Assembly: GCF_003351105.1 (NCBI RefSeq)
Contig: NZ_NKRG01000002.1
Location: forward strand, 62,001 to 126,000
Source of the DNA: Thermosipho africanus Ob7
Lineage (GTDB): Bacteria > Thermotogota > Thermotogae > Thermotogales > Fervidobacteriaceae
DNA length: 64,000 nt
Direction of reading: 5' to 3'
Shown: piece after piece, positions 32,081 to 41,236 of the stretch
Layout of the letters: each line of letters begins with the position of its first letter
Numbering within the stretch: the stretch's first letter is position 1
The notes under the pieces: generated by a model
Seen by the model: only the letters and a program-made list of their open reading frames with translations
Databases searched by the model: none
Told to the model about the DNA's origin: nothing
Translations under genes and position numbers: made by a program

Positions 32081-32249
32081 AATTTATATCTCCAAAATAT
32101 AAATTTCGTAAATCAGTTGTCAATTAAGTTCTAAATATGATAAAGTTATTACACTAAATATTTTTATAAAATATTTTTCCAGGCAAATATGTTCCTTTAA
32201 ATCTTTTTACACAGTTTTTAGCAACTTAAAAAAATTTATTTTTTACTTA
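32081..32249. other. AT-rich gap with no recognised feature
   Basis: 170 bases between the terminator and the left end of the decayed insertion sequence. No ribosome binding site with an open frame, hairpin or RNA gene is seen. Confidence 0.5.
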
Positions 32250-32273
32250 ATAGCCCCTGACCAATGTAAAAAT
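32250..32273 (+). repeat. Left terminal inverted repeat
   Basis: It pairs with 32819-32842 at 20 of 24 positions; the inner part CCAATGTAAAAAT is identical in both ends. Confidence 0.75.
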
Positions 32274-32358
32274 AAGTTAAATTAGAATATAAAATAAGGG
32301 CTACACCTGCTAAAAATATTTTGCACCAAAAATAATCTCTAACAAGGAGGCGAAGCAC

Positions 32359-32852
32359 CTGAAAAATATTTATCTCAATAGTGAAATTAGAAGAAAGAAA
32401 AAGAGACTTCATCTATTATATGAAGCAAAAGTGTTATTAGATTTTGAGATAGGAAATAATAAATAGAACATGCAGAAATTATGTTAGAAGATATAGAAGG
32501 TTCAATATTGTTAGCAGATAGAGGATACTGGCAATGGGAGTTTATTGAAAAAATGAAAGAAAAGATGAAGTTATATGTAAGACCTAGTGGAAGAAAAGGG
32601 AAAGAATTTATGGAAAGAGAAATAAATAGGTTGATATAAAGCAAAAGATGGGAAATAGAATGGTATATAGAAAGGCTGAAGCAGAGTATAAAGATGAGAG
32701 GAATGAATGAAAGGAAGCTAAAGGCGCAGATTACATATATGTTACAAGGGCAGCAGTTAACGATGTTAACAGACACACTTTCTACTCATCCTAAAATGAT
32801 TAGATTGATTGACAAAAAATTTTTACATTGGCTAGGGTATATTTTATTTTAG
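32359..32852 (+). pseudogene. Transposase remnant (frameshift, stop, internal deletion)
   Basis: An N-terminal fragment begins near 32359, eight bases after AAGGAGG, and stops at TAG 32464. The C-terminal fragment continues in another frame from about 32466 with LLADRGYWQWEFIEKM, an in-frame TAA at 32637, then KRWEIEWYIERLKQSIKM, and ends at TAG 32850. The first catalytic aspartate region is missing, so the middle has been deleted. Inactive. Family likely IS4-like. Confidence 0.7.
32819..32842 (-). repeat. Right terminal inverted repeat
   Basis: Reverse complement matches the left end at 20 of 24 positions. Confidence 0.75.
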
Positions 32853-39458: not shown

Positions 39459-40076
39459 ATGCTTGAAAAATTAAATGATTCTCAGCTTGATTTTTTAAAG
39501 GAAGTAGGAAATATTGGCTCTGGAAATGCTGCAACAGCACTTTCAACTATGATTGGGAAAAAAGTAGATATATCTGTCCCTTCAACAAAGGTTGTACCCA
39601 TTTCCCAAATTCCTTTTATCTTTGAAAATCCAGAAGAAATAGTTTGTGCAATAAAAATGAAAATGAGAGAAGATGTTGAAGGTGAAATACTTTTAATCTT
39701 GAACTCTAATACCGTCAAAGAAATAAATAAAATATTAACTGGAAGTACTTTAGAAGATATTACTAGCCTTGATGAGTTTTCTGCTTCAATGCTTAAAGAA
39801 ATTGGAAATATAATGTGTGGTTCATATGTTACAGCACTTTCAGGATTTACAGGTTTCTTTATAAACCCAGATCCACCTGAACTTGCCGTTGATATGATAA
39901 GTGCAGTTTTAGCTGAGGTATCCTTATCTGTATCAACAACTGAAGATTACATTCTTTTAATTGAAACCTCAATAAAAATTGAAGGTATAGAAAAAGAATT
40001 AACAGGATATCTGCTTTTACTTCCAAATGAGGAATCACTAGAAAAAATACTTAAAAAATTGGGGATGTGGAATTAA
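39459..40076 (+). CDS. cheC: Chemotaxis phosphatase CheC
   Basis: 205 residues. Two repeated active-site helices are visible: FLKEVGNIGSGNAATALS near 11-28 and LKEIGNIMCGSYVTALS near 110-126. CheC dephosphorylates CheY-P and is activated by CheD. It overlaps cheD by one base. Confidence 0.93.
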   Translation: MLEKLNDSQLDFLKEVGNIGSGNAATALSTMIGKKVDISVPSTKVVPISQIPFIFENPEEIVCAIKMKMREDVEGEILLILNSNTVKEINKILTGSTLEDITSLDEFSASMLKEIGNIMCGSYVTALSGFTGFFINPDPPELAVDMISAVLAEVSLSVSTTEDYILLIETSIKIEGIEKELTGYLLLLPNEESLEKILKKLGMWN

Positions 40077-40558
40077 TGCCAATCAAGTCAAAGAAAATAA
40101 TTGGTATAGGCGATTATGCCATTGGTGATAAAAATACGATTCTTGTAACGTTAGGCCTTGGATCATGTGTGGGTGTATGTATAAGAGACAAAAATAAATT
40201 GATAGGTGCAATGGTACATGTTATGCTTCCTGACAGTGATGGAAAAGAAATTAATAAACCTGGAAAATATGCAGATACTGGGATTAAAATAGTTGTTGAA
40301 GAACTCAAAAAATTAGGTGCAACTACATTTGAGGCTAAAATTGCTGGTGGTGCTTCTATGTTCGAAAAATCAGCAATGGATGTGGGTAAACGAAATGTGG
40401 AATCTGTCAAAAAATGGCTTTCAAAATTTGGAATTAGAATTGTTTCAGAAGACACTGGAGGAAATCGTGCGAGAAGCATTGAATATGATATTGAAACTGG
40501 AAAATTAATGGTAAGAAAGGTTAAAACTGGTGAAAACGTGGAGGTAATTGAAATTTGA
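40076..40558 (+). CDS. cheD: Chemoreceptor glutamine deamidase CheD
   Basis: 160 residues. Catalytic Cys31 in GLGSCVGVC and His48 in GAMVHVMLPD, with the 17-residue spacing known for the family. It deamidates chemoreceptor glutamines and binds CheC. The start is ATG 40076 overlapping the cheC stop (TAATG). Receptors, CheA and CheY are not in the window. Confidence 0.93.
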   Translation: MPIKSKKIIGIGDYAIGDKNTILVTLGLGSCVGVCIRDKNKLIGAMVHVMLPDSDGKEINKPGKYADTGIKIVVEELKKLGATTFEAKIAGGASMFEKSAMDVGKRNVESVKKWLSKFGIRIVSEDTGGNRARSIEYDIETGKLMVRKVKTGENVEVIEI

Positions 40559-41236
40559 TAAATAAAGAAGCATTAGTAAGTGAATATCTACCATATATAA
40601 AAAAAAATTGCATACGATTTGAAAAGAAATCTTCCACACAATGTGGAAGTTGATGATTTGATACAGGAAGGTTTGGTTGCTTTTATACAAGCTATAGAAA
40701 AATTTGACCCTAAAAAAGGAGCAAAATTAAGGTCTTACCTTCTAACACGCGTAAAGGGAGCAATGTACGACTATCTTAGGAAAATCGATTGGATGCCAAA
40801 AAATTTAAGACATGATATAAAATTAGTTGAAGACGCAATTGTAAATATGGAATCTGACACTAACGATATAGATTTTGAAAAAATAGCAAAAATTACTAAT
40901 CTGCCTATTGAAAATGTTAAACGTGCCTACAATGAATTAACTAGAAAACAACTTCTAATGTTAGATAGCTACATTTCTGATGATTCCGAGTTAATTGATA
41001 AAATTGCTTCAGACGAAAATCCTTATTCATATGCAATCAACGAATTATTAAAAGAACAACTTATTGAGGCGATAAAAAAATTAGACGATAAGGAGCAGTT
41101 ACTACTAAGCCTTAGATTTGAGCATGAACTTTCACTAAAGGAAATCGGAAAAGTTTTAAATGTCACAGAATCAAGAGTGTCTCAATTACTTTCCAAGACA
41201 TTAGCAAAGTTAAAGAAATATTTAGGGGGGGAATAA
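40555..41236 (+). CDS. fliA: Flagellar sigma factor FliA (sigma-28), frameshifted at an A9 run
   Basis: Sigma-28 family factor for late flagellar genes. The likely start is TTG 40555, nine bases after GGAGGT. The first 17 codons encode INKEALVSEYLPYIKK, then nine A (40599-40607) shift the frame; eight A would give the family sequence YIKKIAYDLKRNLPHNVEVDDL. From 40619 the frame is intact: region 2 (LIQEGLVAFIQAIEKFDPKKGAKLRSY), region 3 and region 4 (LSLKEIGKVLNVTESRVSQLLSKTL). The unshifted frame stops at 40651. This could be a base-call error, a mutation, or use of transcriptional slippage. The position after cheC-cheD matches sigD of Bacillus. Confidence 0.88.

Follow-up and report, generated by a model that had tools for sequence, protein, structure and literature searches.

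The window analyzed here, a stretch of 64,000 nucleotides of the Thermosipho africanus Ob7 assembly, contains the gene for the flagellar sigma factor FliA, with intact cheC, cheD, flhF, flhG, and flhA as neighbors. Coordinates of the features at this locus, and of comparable sites in the rest of the assembly, are collected in Table 1. A GGAGGT motif is located shortly 5′ of the TTG start of fliA. As assembled, the gene is divided between two frames at a run of nine adenines (A9): the frame opened by the TTG codon at 40555 reads LINKEALVSEYLPYIKKNCIRFEKKSSTQCGS and then terminates at TGA 40651. Before the run this frame encodes MINKEALVSEYLPYIKK; after the run it continues as NCIRFEKKSSTQCGS to the stop. 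The downstream frame is open for 211 aa and matches both the Sigma70_r2 and Sigma70_r4 profiles. Translation thus confirms the coordinates given in the initial annotation of this sequence, which had described fliA as out of frame at the A9 run. The same annotation had noted that the earliest start codon past the run, TTG 40619, lacks region 2.1; this is roughly right, as in a profile search a product starting there drops positions 1–14 of the 71 in the Pfam region 2 model.

Table 1. Features of the fliA locus and frameshifted genes or sites of the Ob7 assembly. Unprefixed positions are those of the window; prefixed positions give contig and site. "Sister" is the nearest species in the comparison.
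Feature	Position	Strand	Evidence
cheD, intact; TGA stop overlaps fliA TTG	40067..40558	+	Pfam CheD PF03975, E 3.8e-32; open reading frame
fliA 5′ fragment: TTG start, 32 aa, premature TGA 40651-40653	40555..40653	+	Translation
A9 run inside fliA, A8 in sister species (+1 base here); probable homopolymer over-call	40599..40607	+	Sequence comparison
Remaining fliA, +1 frame; 98% identity to sister FliA; Sigma70 regions 2 and 4	40601..41236	+	Translation, profiles
hemW, frameshifted at A9 within the CKKKC iron-sulfur motif; A8 in sister	C4:76245 (outside window)		
FliH-like gene upstream of a FliI-like gene, frameshifted at A7; A8 in sister	C2:228916 (outside window)		
ATPase-like protein, frameshifted at A/T run	C6:72732 (outside window)		
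gltA-type glutamate synthase, frameshifted			
M42 aminopeptidase, frameshifted			
RecQ-like helicase, frameshifted			
ABC permease, frameshifted			
791-aa protein, frameshifted			
461-aa protein, frameshifted			
370-aa membrane protein, frameshifted			
1110-aa protein, frameshifted; putative LptF/LptG-kind permease, N-terminus judged by eye			
Positions of genes frameshifted at A/T runs eight or nine long, in Ob7 and not in sister	C2:6976, C1:180546, C1:207228, C1:236382, C3:142290, C5:14941, C5:26776, C6:72732, C9:36247 (outside window)		

The homolog search for fliA took in 61 genomes of the group, among which the nearest species (G001, the sister) has an intact FliA of 226 aa whose open frame reaches a start codon. 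This protein passes the TIGR02479 (FliA_WhiG) model with 211.1 bits against a cut-off of 189.6, and the downstream frame in the window, at 98% protein identity to it, remains well kept, as had been proposed from the sequence alone; unlike the sister's copy, however, that of the window is split. At the position of the window's A9, the sister's DNA has a run of eight (A8), which is also found in a further relative (G007). Because the sister carries A8 together with an intact gene, the break belongs to the assembled sequence itself and is no quirk of open reading frame calling. The alignment with related fliA genes for which the initial annotation had called gives a uniform picture: fliA is in frame, and without a run of nine, in all 30 relatives read, and the KK/KR/AK pair is encoded in the other relatives by shorter or interrupted runs. 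The A9 run is therefore confined to the Ob7 assembly, and the arrangement is not conserved.

The Ob7 draft genome (NKRG00000000; 1,933,435 bp in 23 contigs) was generated from Ion Torrent PGM data only and assembled with Newbler 2.6; other strains sequenced in the same study had MiSeq runs, whereas Ob7 did not (PMC6211235). The sequence thus derives from an error-prone platform with no correction by a second one. Errors of the PGM are mainly homopolymer indels, the rate of which climbs with run length, and they include high-frequency indels that are present in a large fraction of reads (PMC3623719).

Comparison with the sister indicates that the fliA break has many counterparts in the Ob7 assembly. 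In collinear stretches of the two genomes (approximately 94% DNA identity; ~1.01 Mb aligned, or about half of the genome), at least 12 Ob7 genes carry an internal frameshift at an A/T run of length seven or above, and no such case was found in the sister; isolated in-frame nonsense codons, by comparison, number five in each. Of the 16 coding runs in Ob7 that are at least nine long, 8 disrupt the gene, compared with 0 of 9 for the sister (Fisher p ~0.02), and among coding runs with an expected length of eight, 8 of ~200 have a called length of nine in Ob7 versus 0 of ~200 in the sister (Fisher p ~0.007), p values that are only indicative because the counts (8, 16, 9, ~200, and the 12 above) were classed by hand and some sites are common to both genomes. 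Eleven of the 12 Ob7 breaks are over-calls, usually from eight to nine; the sole clear under-call lies in the FliH-like gene, the only flagellar gene besides fliA among them. None of the sampled broken genes is clearly essential, a point against sequencing error. The break in hemW probably reflects the same artifact as that in fliA.

An excess of single-base breaks that is restricted to long runs, increases with their length, falls in unrelated genes of one genome only, and is accompanied by no excess of nonsense codons is the signature of platform error. Together with the Ion Torrent-only reads, the similar one-base breaks in about a dozen sampled genes make a sequencing artifact the most likely source of the fliA break. 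These data suggest that the ninth A of the fliA run is very probably a homopolymer over-call and not a biological switch; that this particular site counts among the assembly errors is most likely, given the platform, the genome-wide excess, and the intact genes of relatives. The assembly error that the initial annotation had offered as a fallback is accordingly strongly supported, by the Ion Torrent-only source and by the mis-sized A/T runs in at least 12 genes versus none in the sister. The true fliA gene would then carry a shorter run, as in the sister species, and its product would be a normal FliA of full length, with translation starting at the TTG codon that overlaps the cheD stop.

The Ob7 breaks resemble the homopolymer errors described for the PGM (PMC3623719) in being single-base indels at long A/T runs, frequent across the assembly, that disrupt otherwise intact genes. 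The direction of the errors fits an over-call imperfectly: nearly all of the Ob7 breaks (11 of 12) are over-calls, whereas in PGM reads long runs are under-called more often than over-called (PMC3623719). That tendency is described for reads; the breaks in Ob7 would be consensus errors remaining after assembly with Newbler.

A genuine recent frameshift would imply that slippage during replication of the run has cost the strain its FliA, whether the outcome is a fixed null (laboratory domestication or motility loss) or a phase-off state that can revert. The A8 tract common to G001 and G007 would provide an ancestral, slippage-prone substrate for such a change, and fliH, a second flagellar gene, is likewise frameshifted at an A run in Ob7; the presence of both among the 12 could point to real decay of motility genes, although we regard such decay as improbable. 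The remaining breaks are scattered in unrelated genes, and hemW, the glutamate synthase, the M42 peptidase, recQ, and the ABC permease are atypical as contingency loci; flagellar gene loss leaves the damage to hemW and the other non-flagellar genes unexplained. Nor does the count of nonsense mutations exceed that of the sister, and the genes surrounding fliA are intact. A similar pattern would be expected of a mutator strain, which is unlikely as well given open frames for MutS (850 aa) and MutL (577 aa). A literature search found no description of the motility of strain Ob7. Taken together, the wide scatter of the breaks and the preserved neighbors of fliA argue that a true null or phase-off allele is unlikely.

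Of the three readings offered in the initial annotation (slippage rescue, a phase-off allele, or an assembly error), the preferred one was that transcriptional slippage at a genuine A9 could supply FliA from a fraction of mRNAs. Such slippage of RNA polymerase might be programmed or merely tolerated. The good preservation of the downstream frame would fit such an arrangement, and bacterial runs of A9 to A11 can slip, as at the A9 of Thermus dnaX (PMC1088944) and the A11 of Citrobacter tssM (PMC4256274). The frame relationship at fliA is unfavorable, however. The FliA frame is reached only by losing one A or gaining two. When transcription adds bases at A/T runs, however, it usually adds a single one, and deletions there are rare, according to genome-wide data (PMC5574713). 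One added A gives ATA AAA AAA AAA TTG CAT ACG ATT TGA and so ends at a stop codon of the third frame; the commonest slip would consequently make no FliA even if A9 were real. The run as assembled is of the length associated with slippage (approximately nine A/T), but this length is itself in doubt. In a programmed site, the run and the frame arrangement would be conserved in orthologs, whereas the sister has A8, the runs of the other relatives are shorter or interrupted, and every one of these genes is in frame; A9 is conserved in no relative examined. A similar break in a dozen unrelated genes, moreover, requires no slippage. A −1 shift by the ribosome at the A run was likewise considered and rejected, since the FliA frame lies at +1 from the start frame and such a slip would miss it.

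Known slippage genes carry long runs, and where they have been tested the slippage is backed by data on mRNA and protein. Thermus thermophilus dnaX (PMC1088944) also has a nine-A run within a coding gene of a thermophile, but its full-length product is in the templated frame, whereas fliA would need slippage for its sole functional product, and the fliA run is not conserved. Citrobacter rodentium tssM1 is likewise interrupted behind a poly-A run while the frame downstream stays intact, and slippage there amounts to approximately 20–25% (PMC4256274); however, its run is the longer A11 and its frame is restored by added adenosines, as mRNA and protein data show, whereas one added A does not restore fliA. 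Slippage as a supply of FliA is thus unsupported for a run that is unique to this assembly, and we consider it highly improbable; a real A9 that makes FliA synthesis dependent on polymerase slippage, with motility switched stochastically at the RNA level, is extremely doubtful.

With the ninth A read as an over-call, the fliA break is ordinary and carries little biological weight. Its practical use is cautionary: where an Ob7 gene loses its frame at an A/T run eight or nine long, the break should not be interpreted as a pseudogene, as phase variation, or as slippage unless reads are consulted. At least 12 genes are affected in the sampled half of the genome, and lists of disrupted Ob7 genes may contain such cases.

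An adenylate kinase (C4:116943), flagged in the frameshift scan, differs in start site and contains no break. One-base frameshifts that do not coincide with a long run occur outside the window at C2:210794 and C4:174836, in a CapD/PglF-like epimerase and a ferredoxin-like gene (CxxCxxC); these may be genuine, or they may be errors of a different type. Within the window, collinearity with the sister is interrupted at approximately 32106–32612, where Ob7 has ~0.5 kb and the sister ~1.4 kb.
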